Shown here: positions 49,663 to 56,250 of the stretch, one piece after another | Layout of the letters: every line of letters begins with the position of its first letter | Position numbering within the stretch: the first letter of the stretch is position 1 | Assembly (NCBI RefSeq): GCF_000949635.1 | Contig: NZ_BAFN01000001.1 | Coordinates: forward strand, 3,097,052 to 3,161,051 | Direction: 5' to 3' | DNA: 64,000 nucleotides | From: Candidatus Brocadia sinica JPN1 | GTDB lineage: Bacteria; Planctomycetota; Brocadiia; Brocadiales; Brocadiaceae | Translations under genes and position numbers: made by a program | Notes under the pieces: generated by a model | What the model was told of the DNA's origin: nothing | The model's input: the letters and a program-made list of their open reading frames with translations, nothing else | Databases searched by the model: none

Positions 49663-51819
49663 ATGAAAAACGGATCAATTTATAAGGAGAATCAGTTTTT
49701 TGTATTTACTCTCATCTTCATATCCGCATTTTCCTTTTTGCTTTATTTAAATGCAACGCACGGCAGGTTTGTCTATGATGATTTTAAGATTATTGTGGAA
49801 AATTCCTTCGTTAAGGAATGGAGGTATCTGCCCAAAATCTTTACGAAAGATTATTTTTCTCTTTCAGGGGAGATGAGTTATCGCCCCCTTGTCACAATCT
49901 CATACTTTCTTGATTATGCCATCTGGCGCTTAAATCCCCTTGGATTTCACCTTACCAATGTCATCTTGCATACAGGAAATTCGGTACTTTTTTATCTTTT
50001 CCTTCGTACCATTTTAGACAACAATAAGATTGTTTTATTTTCAATTTTTTTCTTTGTCACACATCCTCTACTTGTGGAAACCGTAAATGCCGTCGGCTAT
50101 CGGGAAGATCTCTTATCCGCAACCTTTCTCCTTGTCTCTCTTACTTATTTTATAAAATCCGATACCCTTCTTTATCGGGAAACCGGCAAAAAGAGTCGAT
50201 TTATAGTTTATTATGCAATTTCTCTTGTAGCATATCTGTGCGCCCTTTTTTCAAAGGAAATGGCCATAACCCTTCCTAGCCTGCTTATGTTGTTTGTGGT
50301 ATTTTCCGATCAAAGGCCATGGCCAGCCCTTGCGAGAAGATTTAAAGGAATCTATATAGGGTATCTTGCGATTTCCCTATTCTACATTGTAATTCGATTT
50401 ATGGTATTCAGTAATCCGGCATTAAAAACTGCCTATCAACCCGGTGGTTTCTGGGTCAATGTCTTCACCATGATTACAATACTGGCGTCCTATATCAAAC
50501 TATCATTCTTTCCGCTAAATCTTAATGCGGACTACATAGTCCCTCTTGCAACACATCCACTGGAAGCGTCATCTGTTATTTCCGTAACCTTCCTGATATC
50601 AATTTTTACCATATTTGCGATATTGTGCAAAACAAGGAATATGTTTGCCTGCTGGATGGTGTGGTTCTTTGTCACAATGCTGCCCGTTATGAATATCATT
50701 CCCATAGGGAACATCATGGCAGAGAGATATCTGTATATTCCGGTAATGGGATTTTGTGTGTTAAAGGGGATTCTCATTTATCGGATTACAGACCGTACCT
50801 TATCTACACGCGCCATTCCATTGAGGCAAATAGTACAGCTGGTCCTGGTGACCTTAATGATCGGGGGATATGGGGTTTCTATTATCTGGAAGAATGGGAA
50901 TTGGCGGGACGAACTTACATTGTGGACGAAAACCATCGCCCGTTCCCCTGACAGCTATCGTGCCCATTGCAATTTGGGAAATGTATACATGGAAAGAGGT
51001 CTTATAGAACGGGCACAAATGGAATATCAGACTGCGTTAAACATAAACCCTAAAGATGCCAGTATTCATAGCAACCTTGGCGCAGTCTATAGCAAACAGG
51101 GCCTTATTGATAAGGCCTTTATAGAATACAAAGAAGCCATTCAACTGGACAGAAATTATGCGCAACCTCATAATAATCTGGGCAACATTTACTATAATCA
51201 GGGCTACCTTGACAAGGCAAGATCGGAGTATGAGGAGGCATTGAGGATAAAGCCGAACTATTCACATGCCCATAATGGGCTTGGCAGTATCTATGATTCA
51301 ACTGGAGAACACGATAAGGCCATGGAGGAATTTCAGAAGTCCCTTTATTACGACAGCCGATACATACTTGCCCGGAACAATTTGGGTGTAAATTATGCAA
51401 GAAGAGGGCAGATATATGAAGCCGTTGCTGAGTTTAAAAAGGCTCTTGCGATTGACTCAAATCAGCCGCAAGGCCATTATAACTTGGGGCTTGCTTATGA
51501 AAAATTGGGAAAACAATCTGAAGCCATCAATGAATATAATATCGTAATTCGGCTCGATCCCAACAATCTCAATGCTCACTATGCACTCGGCAGTTTATAC
51601 CGCGGATTGGGCCTGGCAGACAAGGCTATAGACGTATTCCAGAAAATTCTTATACGTAACCCAAACATCGTAAATGTTCACAAAAATCTCGTTTTTTTAT
51701 ACCTCGATAGCAAAAATGATAGAGAAATGTCTCAATATTATCTTAAGGAATTATTAAGGATTGATCCCTCTCAGGTGGAAAAAGAGGACATCAGGCAGGT
51801 CTTGAATCGTTTAAAATGA
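49663..51819 (+). CDS. Membrane glycosyltransferase-like protein with eight TPR repeats (TMTC-like)
   Basis: 718 residues. The N-terminal ~420 residues are a multi-helix membrane domain like the O-mannosyltransferase-related TMTC proteins and other GT-C enzymes: a loop with FVYDDFKIIVEN near residue 40 (the GT-C Asp-Asp motif), YRPLVTISYFLDY, and helices such as IVLFSIFFFVTHPLLVETVNAVGYR. From about residue 425 eight TPR repeats follow, each with the N-LG-Y pattern (for example HNNLGNIYYNQGYLDKARSE). A function in surface protein glycosylation is possible. A decayed paralogue of the N-terminal part lies at 54231. Confidence 0.83.
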   Translation: MKNGSIYKENQFFVFTLIFISAFSFLLYLNATHGRFVYDDFKIIVENSFVKEWRYLPKIFTKDYFSLSGEMSYRPLVTISYFLDYAIWRLNPLGFHLTNVILHTGNSVLFYLFLRTILDNNKIVLFSIFFFVTHPLLVETVNAVGYREDLLSATFLLVSLTYFIKSDTLLYRETGKKSRFIVYYAISLVAYLCALFSKEMAITLPSLLMLFVVFSDQRPWPALARRFKGIYIGYLAISLFYIVIRFMVFSNPALKTAYQPGGFWVNVFTMITILASYIKLSFFPLNLNADYIVPLATHPLEASSVISVTFLISIFTIFAILCKTRNMFACWMVWFFVTMLPVMNIIPIGNIMAERYLYIPVMGFCVLKGILIYRITDRTLSTRAIPLRQIVQLVLVTLMIGGYGVSIIWKNGNWRDELTLWTKTIARSPDSYRAHCNLGNVYMERGLIERAQMEYQTALNINPKDASIHSNLGAVYSKQGLIDKAFIEYKEAIQLDRNYAQPHNNLGNIYYNQGYLDKARSEYEEALRIKPNYSHAHNGLGSIYDSTGEHDKAMEEFQKSLYYDSRYILARNNLGVNYARRGQIYEAVAEFKKALAIDSNQPQGHYNLGLAYEKLGKQSEAINEYNIVIRLDPNNLNAHYALGSLYRGLGLADKAIDVFQKILIRNPNIVNVHKNLVFLYLDSKNDREMSQYYLKELLRIDPSQVEKEDIRQVLNRLK

Positions 51820-52031: not shown

Positions 52032-52766
<735 letters not shown>

Positions 52767-53624
52767 ATGTCTTACACAACTCTTATATCCGCTTCCGAAC
52801 TTTTCGATCAGATTGCTAATCCAGATTGGGTGATTATCGATTGTCGTTTTTCCCTGGATGATACGGAACGTGGCCGCCGGGATTACCTTCAAGCCCATAT
52901 ACCCGGCGCCGTCTATACACACTTAAACGAAGACTTGTCTGGTCCGATCATTCCCGGCAAGACCGGCCGCCATCCACTGCCAAAGCCTGAAACATTTGCC
53001 CAAACCTTGTCAAATTGGGGAATAGATGCTAAAGTTCAAGTTGTAGCCTATGACGATAAGGGCGGTGCAATGGCGGCAGCCCGACTATGGTGGCTGTTGC
53101 GATGGGTTGGTCATGATGCCGTTGCAATCCTGGACGGCGGTTGGCCACAATGGCAAAAGAAAGGTTACTCGGTAACAAGCGGTATTGAAACCCGAAAACC
53201 AAGGGTCTTTACCCCCAGAGTTCGAAACGACTTGTTGGTTAGTTCCGCTGATGTTTTGAAGATACTGCACAATCCAAACTTTCGTTTAATTGACTCACGG
53301 AGCGCAGACCGCTATCGTGGTGAAAACGAGACAATTGATCCGGTAGCTGGTCATATTCCAGGTGCTTTCTCTGCTCCTTTCGCCAATAATCTGGATTCGA
53401 ACGGGTTGTTTATTTCCCAGGAAGATCTGAAAGACCGCTTTCAGGATTTGCTTGGTAATATACCACCTGAGCGTGCAGTTTTCTATTGCGGTTCAGGTGT
53501 CACCGCATCACACAACCTTCTTGCCTTAGCTCATGCAGGTTTTGGAGACGCCCGTTTATATGCTGGTTCATGGAGCGAATGGATCACCAACACGGATTAT
53601 CCAATCACAAAGGGCACAGATTAA
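52767..53624 (+). CDS. Rhodanese-domain sulfurtransferase (SseA-type)
   Basis: 285 residues from the ATG at 52767 (a longer frame upstream is random-looking). Two rhodanese domains: the N-terminal inactive one (WVIIDCRFSLDDTERGRRDY, AHIPGAVYTHLNEDLSG, VQVVAYDDKGGAMAAARLWWLLRWVGHD, VAILDGGWPQW) and the C-terminal active one with RLIDSRSADRYRGENE, AGHIPGAFSAPF and the catalytic loop FYCGSGVTASHN. The Cys loop CGSGVTA is the 3-mercaptopyruvate/thiosulfate sulfurtransferase type. No adjacent sulfur gene; it lies in a debris region but looks intact. Confidence 0.93.
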   Translation: MSYTTLISASELFDQIANPDWVIIDCRFSLDDTERGRRDYLQAHIPGAVYTHLNEDLSGPIIPGKTGRHPLPKPETFAQTLSNWGIDAKVQVVAYDDKGGAMAAARLWWLLRWVGHDAVAILDGGWPQWQKKGYSVTSGIETRKPRVFTPRVRNDLLVSSADVLKILHNPNFRLIDSRSADRYRGENETIDPVAGHIPGAFSAPFANNLDSNGLFISQEDLKDRFQDLLGNIPPERAVFYCGSGVTASHNLLALAHAGFGDARLYAGSWSEWITNTDYPITKGTD

Positions 53625-53649
53625 AAATCCCCGAACTAAAGAGGGGCCA

Positions 53650-53853
53650 ATGAAACTGGATAGGCCTGTCCTTATTGAGGGACGTCAAAAAAACACACTA
53701 CTGGTTTCTATCGATTTAATTATTAAAAACACCCGAAACAAGGTATTGTTAGGTTTGCGAAATGATGAATCCGTCAGAAGTTGTTGGTTCGTTCCTGGTT
53801 CTCGGATTTGCAAGATTGAATTTTATTTATTCGCATATATAATATTTTATTGA
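53650..53853 (+). pseudogene. Truncated GDP-mannose mannosyl hydrolase (Nudix) fragment
   Basis: A 67-codon frame. Residues 15-52 match the front of GDP-mannose mannosyl hydrolases (LVSIDLIIKNTRNKVLLGLR, then CWFVPGSR). The frame leaves homology before the Nudix box (GX5EX7REUXEEXGU), which is missing, and stops. A truncated, non-catalytic remnant. Confidence 0.75.
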
Positions 53854-53925
53854 ATTTTGTCTTTATTGTTGATATTATCTCTTTTTCGTTTTTATATACA
53901 CATCTTAACATTTTTGGAGGATTCT

Positions 53926-54018
53926 ATGGCAAATGGTTTTGCCGGGAAAAAGAAGCATCGGTTAAATAGGAAAAAATATCTCTTAAAAAGGCGCAGAAGG
54001 AAACACGAGAAGGTTTGA
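53926..54018 (+). CDS. 30-residue strongly basic protein
   Basis: A short ORF with a perfect GGAGG ribosome site six bases before its ATG. The product MANGFAGKKKHRLNRKKYL..., ending RRRRKHEKV, has about half Lys/Arg residues. The KKHRLNRKKYLLKRRRRK core resembles the COX24/AURKAIP1-type short basic proteins that bind the small ribosomal subunit. This resemblance is suggestive only. The ribosome site and codon-neat frame argue that it is translated. Confidence 0.6.
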   Translation: MANGFAGKKKHRLNRKKYLLKRRRRKHEKV

Positions 54019-54230
54019 TATGGAATTTATTTTCGCTTTTTGTGTAGGAATTCCCGTTATGGATTTTAGGGTTACAGGCGAACACGGGTTATTGTGGTTA
54101 TTATGAGCTAGCAGAAAAGAAGGTAGATGTATAATTCATACCAACTCATCAATAAACATGGGCGGTAACATTCAGATCAGATAAATCACTTTTTTTCATT
54201 TGACAACTTTCCCTTACCATTGTTGTTTCC

Positions 54231-54688
54231 GTGCTGCTCTACTTGTATACTATCGGAAACAATTTTGTCTATGACGATAAGTTTATCGTTGTAAATAATT
54301 ATCTGATAAGGTCGTGGCATAAGGTGTCTATAATCTTTTCAAGTGATTATTTCACGGGAGATGGTGGACTCAGTTATCGCCCATTTGTAACAGTATCCTA
54401 TTTCTTGATTACTCCTTTTAGCGCCTCAATCCTGCTGGATATCATCTTACAAACCTATTTCTCCATAGCCTTAACACCGTCCTTTTATTCTTCTTTCTTT
54501 CTCGCCTCTTGAGCACGCTCGGCGGAACATACAAAGAATCGGGGGTTTTGCTCAATCATATTCCCAACCTAAGTCCAAAACATAGTATCGTAAATTCCTG
54601 TAATTTTAGCTTCATCGGAAATGTATATTTTAAAAAGGGCGCCCTTGATGCGGCTGTTCTTGGCAAAGGGAAGCTATCAATAAGATGA
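54231..54688 (+). pseudogene. Decayed paralogue of the TMTC-like TPR protein
   Basis: From 54231 the frame shows FVYDDKFIVVNNYL, SSDYFTGDGGLSYRPFVTVSYF, aligned with FVYDDFKIIVEN and MSYRPLVTISYF of the protein at 49663. Near 54435 the frame shifts, and the other frame continues with GYHLTNLFLHSLNTVLLFFF. Most of the membrane domain is then missing, and a TPR-like piece (CNFSFIGNVYFKKGALDAA) runs to the stop at 54688. Frameshift plus a large internal deletion make it a pseudogene. Confidence 0.8.
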
Positions 54689-54702
54689 TTGAAAAAATCG
54701 GG

Positions 54703-54741
54703 ATAAAAAAATAGGGGCTTCATGACTTGCACGAAGCCCCC
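54703..54741 (-). terminator. Terminator of rpoD
   Basis: GGGGCTTC (54714-54721) and GAAGCCCC (54733-54740) form the stem. On the minus strand the hairpin is followed by TATTTTTTTATCC, a good U-run. Confidence 0.85.
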
Positions 54742-54768
54742 CTCTCGGTCACTCCTTGAGGAGTTGTA

Positions 54769-56250
54769 TTAATTTGTCATCACCCCTTCGAGAAATCCTT
54801 CTAATTTCCTGCTTCGCAGTGGATGTTGCAGTTTGCGAATGGCAACGGTTTCGATTTGTCGTATGCGCTCCCTTGTTATGTTAAACCGTTCCCCAATTTC
54901 TTCCAACGTGTGGGTGTACCCGTCACCAATACCAAATCGCAGCTTAATCACCTCGCGTTCCCGATGATTCAGTGTGTTAAGTACTTTTTGTAACTGATCC
55001 TTAAGCAGTGATTGGTGAACAGCGGAGATTGGCGATTCCATCTTTTTGTCCTGGATAAAATCCTCAAACATCGTTTCACCATCGTCGCCAATTGGATTTT
55101 CTAATGATATAGGCTGAGACGCAATTCGGAATACCCGATAAACCTCTGAAACTGGAATTTTCGCTTCTTTTGCGATGGTCTCTAGTTTGGGTTTTTTGTC
55201 AAGGCATTCCTGCGAGTTCCTCAACACTTTGTTCGTCTTGTTGATTACATCCGTCATGTGTACCGGGATGCGTACCATCCTTGCCTTGTCATCTATTGCC
55301 CTGATAATCGCCTGCTTGATCCACCAAGTGGCATACGTGCTAAATTTAAAACCCATACGATAATCGTATTTATCAACAGCCCGCATCAGACCCGTGTTTC
55401 CTTCCTGAATAAGATCGTGGAAGACCATGCCGCGCTTCCTGTACTTTTTTGCAATACTCACCACCAGTCTCAGATTACCCTCAGAGAATCGATTCCTGGC
55501 AGATTCGTACTCATGGTAAATGGAATTCATAGAGTGAATAGCTTTCTTTGTTGCTTCGACGGTTTCCATTAACAAGATTTTTGTTTCGCTAGAATCGTGC
55601 AAAAGTTTCTTGTAGACTTCTTTTTTATAATGCGAACCTTGCGGGCTTTCTTTATACGATACTACTTCTGACAAAACGCTTAATAACTCCTTCATAACCG
55701 GCAATATCGTTTCTGCGCGGATGTGCATAGCCTCTAACTCTTTGATCGCCTTCCTCTTCCTGGAAGCTGCTTTTCTCAGGACTCTGGATTTTAAATTTTT
55801 GGAAACAATTCCCTTGTTCATTTTTTCATAGTCTTTTAGGTTTTTTTCAAGTGCGTCTTTGATTTTTTCAGCAACGCAATGAAGTTGCTCGACCGTTTCG
55901 TTTTTGCTTTGCTCTTTTGTTACCGCAGTCTCGACAAATTGGACAAGGTCCGATTCACTATCCAACTCCTCAAGTATACGTACGTATTTTTCCAGGGCAT
56001 AATCAAATCCCAGTACCCTCCTGTGAAGCAACCGGCTCGTAATCTTTATCTTCTTTGCCAGATAGAGTTCTTCTTCACGAGATAACAATGGTAGGGATGA
56101 CATCTCTTTCAAGTAAAGACGAACCGGGTCGTAATCCTTATATTTTATCCTTTGTTCAAGGACTTCCCCTTCGTTATTGTCCTCTTCGGCAACATAATTT
56201 TCATTCATTTCATCGGCTAGATGGTCGATTTTATATTCAAATTTATTCAT
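54769..56250 (-). CDS. rpoD: Primary-type RNA polymerase sigma-70 factor
   Basis: 493 residues. Region 1.2 ([21 protein letters not shown]), a long non-conserved insert (~residues 90-250), region 2 with [49 protein letters not shown] (promoter melting and -10 recognition), region 3 and region 4 with the helix-turn-helix ([31 protein letters not shown]). All residues for -10/-35 recognition are present. Length and layout fit the housekeeping sigma factor, and consensus TTGACA/TATAAT promoters in the window agree. The region 1.1 normally in front is short. Strong terminator downstream. Confidence 0.92.

Follow-up and report, generated by a model that had tools for sequence, protein, structure and literature searches.

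The closest described systems are mini-proteins of the ribosome. In Borrelia, bS22 is described as 61% lysine and arginine, unannotated, found only via cryo-EM density and differing by one substitution across three Borrelia groups; it occupies the h2/h27/h44/h45 pocket of 16S rRNA (PMC10618245). The same report describes bL38 of Flavobacterium and Borrelia, a lineage-restricted protein that evades annotation, and eL41, whose 24 residues form one basic helix in a pocket of the small subunit (PMC10618245). A further example, bL37, is described as a lineage-specific, unannotated basic ribosomal mini-protein of mycobacteria that lies near H89 (PMC5876184).

We analyzed a window (the whole stretch of 64,000 nucleotides) from Candidatus Brocadia sinica JPN1 that encodes a 30-residue basic protein, MANGFAGKKKHRLNRKKYLLKRRRRKHEKV (Table 1). 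The first-pass annotation had proposed an ATG-initiated ORF here, and its coordinates are exact; it had put lysine and arginine at about half of the residues, which agrees with our count of 14 of 30 (8 K, 6 R), in addition to 2 His. Positions 1-27 contain zero acidic residues. The GGAGG motif that had been reported six bases from the ATG is present, at a counted spacing of 5 bases, and motifs of this Shine-Dalgarno type precede the start at 40 of 53 testable loci, as compared with 372 of 3472 background ATGs (10.7%). Homologues of the ORF are 28-31 amino acids long (55 proteins), and at 33 of the 55 loci (2 of them at a contig edge) there are zero in-frame starts upstream of the conserved ATG, which fixes that ATG as the start.

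Table 1. Features at the miniprotein locus, in positions of the window
Feature	Coordinates	Strand	Remarks
Truncated NUDIX-family gene remnant	53650..53853	+	Cluster c18; overlaps first promoter hexamer; intact relative L065 is NUDIX PF00293
Promoter TTGAAT-17 bases-TATTAT, with TG before the -10 (extended -10)	53850..53878	+	Conserved site; transcript start inferred
GGAGG Shine-Dalgarno, 5-base spacer	53916..53920	+	From sequence; SD-like motif commoner than background
CDS of 30-residue basic protein	53926..54018	+	ATG, 30 codons, TGA; conserved in order; synonymous-only divergence from Ca. B. pituitae
TPR-repeat protein gene fragment	54231..54512	+	Cluster c0; intact relatives are TPR proteins of roughly 720-740 aa

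The first-pass annotation had suggested looking for conservation in anammox genomes, and such conservation is strongly evident, in distribution, in invariant positions and in the predominance of synonymous change. Within the same order, 55 of 62 genomes encode a relative of the ORF (E 5e-14 to 5e-8), each with a single match at E 0.1 or better, and three of the order's families carry the gene near-universally; the 55-protein count used throughout leaves out the 7 genomes that gave no match. The gene is not found in the two f2 genomes or in the single f5 genome of this 62-genome search. Both f2 genomes (G001 and G002) are listed as 93% complete and are positive for hydrazine synthase (HZS). In G016, which has no miniprotein match, the sigma-factor and glutamine-amidotransferase genes that neighbour it elsewhere are missing too. 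The G024 contig stops 338 bases past the amidotransferase gene, on the miniprotein's side if gene order is that of the window, and the G008 and G054 assemblies are fragmented (370 and 270 contigs).

A profile of 19 family members (A1), searched against 75 genomes from the class and 392 from the phylum, gave strong matches confined to families f1, f3 and f4 of the order. Outside the order, the best match in the phylum search had an E of 0.025, and 3 genomes matched at E 0.05 or better, all of them partially. Seven weak-match places, lying outside the order and in G024, G054, G002, G045 and G043, were read from stop to stop and judged to be chance fragments, as was a weak second match in the window's own genome; none of the weak matches that were read shows a family-like start, length and core, the closest being GKPKFRLNKKHYLFK of G024. 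A scan of 84,980 species (one genome per species) gave 45 confirmed loci, though with near-exact peptide patterns that distant relatives elsewhere could escape. The titles of all 45 fit Brocadiales or give just 'Planctomycet-' or 'uncultured bacterium'; the names among them are Brocadia, Jettenia, Loosdrechtia, Scalindua, Brocadiaceae and Brocadiales, with one RIFCSPHIGHO2_12_FULL_52_36. A FULL_52_36 genome is listed in Bathyanammoxibiaceae (PMC9723696). No viral copies occur among the 82 pattern matches. Order-specific, with its own promoter and a single strong match per genome, the miniprotein makes a clean marker.

The sequence itself is under strong purifying selection. In all 55 proteins, 15 of positions 2-27 are invariant: A2, G4, G7, K8, K10, H11, R12, L13, N14, R15, K17, Y18, L20, K21 and R23. 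Lysine and arginine never replace each other at K8, K10, R12, R15, K17, K21 and R23, and H11, L13, N14, Y18, L20, G4 and G7 are fixed as well; this pattern of fixed K-versus-R identity together with fixed H, L, N, Y and G suggests a specific binding site, not mere charge. Comparison of the window with locus L006 (genome G015), taken as Ca. Brocadia pituitae, reveals 13 synonymous and 0 nonsynonymous changes, and across 1485 pairs mean pS is 0.83 and mean pN 0.12. Start, frame and amino acids are thus kept while synonymous change is free, as in a protein-coding small ORF, and the gene at 53926-54018 is genuine, far beyond chance. So nearly unchanged across an order, a gene of 30 codons is likely to have an essential function.

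We compared these values with those of two core ribosomal proteins. Separate genes for bL34 and bL36 occur in 57 and 60 of the 62 genomes of the order, and like the miniprotein both proteins are small, basic, near-universal there and comparably conserved. Between-family mean identity is 0.784 for the miniprotein versus 0.746 for bL34 (64 pairs, from 19 of the 57 bL34-bearing genomes, with bL34 taken over matched positions 8-40) and 0.789 versus 0.857 for bL36 (17 pairs, from 8 of the 60 bL36-bearing genomes). Within the clade, universality and conservation are therefore core-ribosomal-like, with identity slightly higher than that of bL34 and somewhat lower than that of bL36. Because these two exist as separate genes in the same genomes, we rejected the reading of the ORF as what is left of one of them.

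AlphaFold2 predicts one helix, at residues 5-29, with a mean pLDDT of 79.8. Up to an E of 10, the window's protein matched no NCBIfam or Pfam model, and PDB searches gave best matches that are not ribosomal, at E 1.1 with a profile and E 0.64 with the single sequence; among PDB matches at E up to 10 there is no chain of a solved ribosome. The miniprotein appears to be of a similar small, basic, helical kind to bS22, yet no family in the searched libraries matches it. It resembles bL37 (actinobacteria) and bL38 (Flavobacterium/Borrelia) as a candidate for the lineage-restricted small ribosomal proteins that escape annotation, and differs from them in having no match to any PDB ribosomal chain. 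The likeness to eL41 is a works-like analogy only, that of a single basic helix; eL41 belongs to another lineage, and the miniprotein has no PDB match to it. In a collection without preprints or most subscription papers, the motif strings occur in no paper's text, and no listed title or abstract opening names this protein.

The observations establish a protein-coding gene that is conserved nearly as well as core ribosomal proteins and has a conserved promoter to itself. Reading these sequence features together with the structural model and the described mini-proteins, we propose, with a probability of roughly 0.6, that the product of this gene is a miniature RNA-binding protein specific to the order, most likely a ribosomal one, which is expressed from its own promoter as a single-gene mRNA and places a helix in an rRNA pocket. 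A sigma-70-type promoter would give rise to this mRNA, and the strong Shine-Dalgarno site would direct its translation. The predicted fold is a single basic alpha-helix that carries a short Gly/Phe tail at its N terminus; this helix would insert into an rRNA pocket and stabilise that part of the subunit, as in the non-homologous mini-proteins bS22, bL37 and eL41, and the protein would be a stoichiometric member of the ribosome. The fixed residues, the bL34/bL36-like conservation and the predicted helix together point to a specific, unchanging RNA surface as the partner. rRNA is the most likely such surface, because of the analogy with bS22 in the h2/h27/h44/h45 pocket and bL37 near H89. Near-universality (55 of 62 genomes, beside 57 for bL34 and 60 for bL36) counts for a ribosomal role, and the lack of a sequence match to any known ribosomal protein counts against it, as does the finding of no ribosomal-protein gene among the identified neighbours. 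Moreover, two HZS-positive f2 genomes are without the miniprotein, so the protein is not a universal requirement of the order's ribosome.

A narrower version of this proposal, which we put forward only tentatively, is that we are dealing with a new ribosomal protein of the Brocadiaceae-, Scalinduaceae- and Bathyanammoxibiaceae-type families whose non-homologous helix would occupy a pocket in rRNA, perhaps that of bS22/eL41 close to the decoding centre. If true, this would be one more mini-helix independently invented at a functional centre of the ribosome. If the protein sits on the ribosome, it would extend the pattern of bacterial lineages repeatedly acquiring unrelated mini-helices there, and the structure of a Brocadiales ribosome would contain a component absent from existing models. 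Brocadiales are bacteria central to the nitrogen cycle, and annotation and proteome databases with the usual length cut-offs could miss such a gene.

DNA binding is the main alternative to rRNA binding. A protamine-like or nucleoid-associated peptide that compacts DNA would also be expected to combine a high Lys/Arg content, one predicted helix and a lack of acidic residues in positions 1-27, but charge neutralisation would hardly call for the strict choice of K or R at seven positions or for invariant H, N, Y, L and G, and the miniprotein evolves very slowly. We consider a DNA-compacting role rather improbable. A specific DNA-binding role, or another RNA-binding role, would look identical in sequence.

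A second alternative concerns kinship with known small-subunit proteins. The first-pass annotation had seen a resemblance to COX24-type ribosomal proteins, which holds for size, charge, predicted helix and a loose [KR][LM]N[KR]xKY stretch but does not extend to kinship. With the bS22/COX24 (PF08213)/mS38 proteins the miniprotein has in common a length of about 30 residues, a highly basic composition, a helical (here predicted) structure and a tendency to go unannotated. The miniprotein might be a divergent COX24/AURKAIP1/bS22/mS38 member seated in the small-subunit h27/h44/h45 pocket: it shares length, charge and helical prediction with bS22, and its [KR][LM]N[KR]xKY stretch resembles KMNKHKY of planctomycete bS22. 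A search of the window's genome with PF08213 finds nothing up to an E of 10, and the 10 of 392 phylum genomes that this model does match include none from this order, which would leave the bS22 site for the miniprotein to take; PF08213 is, however, missing from 382 of the 392 sampled phylum genomes, so its absence here is not special. In addition, the invariant KH of planctomycete bS22 is not retained in the aligned stretch of the miniprotein, and the N termini differ (MAxG[FY]xGK versus M[GS]S[VL][IL]K in planctomycete bS22).

Alignment with bacterial COX24-domain proteins, which had been proposed as a check, gave similarity no higher than in permuted controls. Pfam models have 0 matches at E up to 10 to the 19 family members. 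For direct comparison we used 10 planctomycete COX24/bS22 proteins and bS22 of actinobacteria, Bacteroidota and Borrelia. The hhalign probability for the miniprotein against bS22 is 1.1%, and in an hhalign run that was probably a global alignment the observed score was reached by 77 of 200 column shuffles. In profile permutations of the miniprotein against four bS22 sets, 942, 742, 1749 and 880 of 3000 reached the observed score, whereas bS22 subfamilies find each other: as a control, planctomycete bS22 finds actinobacterial bS22 (0/3000) and that of Bacteroidota/Borrelia (2/3000), with a weaker control in actinobacteria versus Bacteroidota bS22 (188/3000). With no match by Pfam or hhalign and none above permutation, we rejected membership in COX24/bS22, and a divergent member of the family seems to us improbable.

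We then considered expression and genomic context. Of the 31 loci of the window's family, 30 carry a promoter pattern, TTG[AC]A-16/18-TAnnAT, at 73-101 bases upstream of the ATG, in most cases with an extended -10, as compared with 1.6% of mononucleotide-shuffled controls. The pattern was defined after inspecting 17 loci; 13 of the 14 remaining loci match it. Three of the family's loci have a second match further upstream. The site can still be made out at 10 of 10 genus-level loci that differ in sequence farther upstream. It is absent from the other two families (0/15 and 0/7), and their promoters therefore differ. Taken by itself, a generic promoter scan gave 4 sites versus 2.6 expected, which is not significant. 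Judging from the promoter sequence, transcription in the window would start at about 53885, giving a 5' UTR of about 40 bases.

Neighbours were compared at 48 loci (45 named loci, the window, L032 and L034). ClpX, sigma-70 factor and TPR genes surround the gene in the window's family, with a convergent sigma factor, a TPR gene or another gene downstream. The Scalindua-type family has ComEC upstream and a DegT aminotransferase and LptD downstream. In the third family the neighbours are a phosphoesterase, a PEGA-domain gene or an AhpC/TSA-like gene (below Pfam's cut-off), the downstream gene being the AhpC/TSA-like one or another. No ribosomal-protein gene is found among the neighbours that were identified, which are part of the total. 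In the window's family the promoter is kept while the neighbours change, as expected of an independent gene and not of a leader peptide or debris.

This context bears on the idea that the ORF is a leader peptide, or a translated regulatory ORF that controls the downstream gene. Shortness, a strong Shine-Dalgarno site and its own promoter would all suit such an element, but the downstream gene differs among families, leaving no conserved link, and Rfam shows no element at 53500-54800. Leader peptides have conservation limited to a few codons, whereas here it covers some 26 residues with free synonymous change; we therefore judge regulation of this kind very unlikely. That the ORF arose by chance in decaying DNA, as its position between two gene remnants might suggest, is refuted by its conservation in 55 of 62 genomes, its synonymous divergence and its fixed start, and has a negligible likelihood.

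The surroundings are nevertheless the debris region that the first-pass annotation had described, with a NUDIX remnant upstream (an intact relative in related genomes has 150 aa) and a TPR-gene fragment downstream; its view that the ORF shows no decay of its own is borne out by an intact, conserved protein-coding gene among pseudogenes. A 51-residue frame with an abrupt stop at 52032-52187 (-), which we take to encode a ParA-like N terminus, appears to be another gene remnant in this region. Many loci of the window's family have TPR genes or gene fragments of cluster c0 close to the miniprotein, on one side or on both; examples are 49663-51819 (+) and the fragment in Table 1, as well as L067, L069 and L072. 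Their arrangement suggests repeated TPR-gene duplication around the miniprotein site. The sigma-70 factor at 54769-56250 (-) seems to represent a further group alongside the primary factor; its best match is 48% identical in G016 and G024, and G022 has a 79% ortholog and a 47% paralog.

The distribution of the miniprotein was also set against that of the hydrazine synthase alpha subunit. Among the 62 genomes, 36 have the ORF and HZS_alpha, 19 the ORF only, 4 HZS_alpha only (including both f2 genomes) and 3 neither. Presence of the miniprotein does not track hydrazine synthase, and a gene of anammox metabolism was therefore rejected. The miniprotein follows lineage, not pathway, although fragmented assemblies easily lose HZS: HZS misses in them may be assembly losses, which makes the 19 ORF-only cases weak and the f2 genomes the stronger counter-examples. 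At 5.9 and 7.6 Mb, G001 and G002 carry hydrazine synthase but not the miniprotein, as either an early split or loss would leave them. The window's genome has two HZS_alpha copies of equal score and frame length, at G000:C1:674830-675144 and G000:C1:2801105-2801419, and several few-contig relatives also have two.
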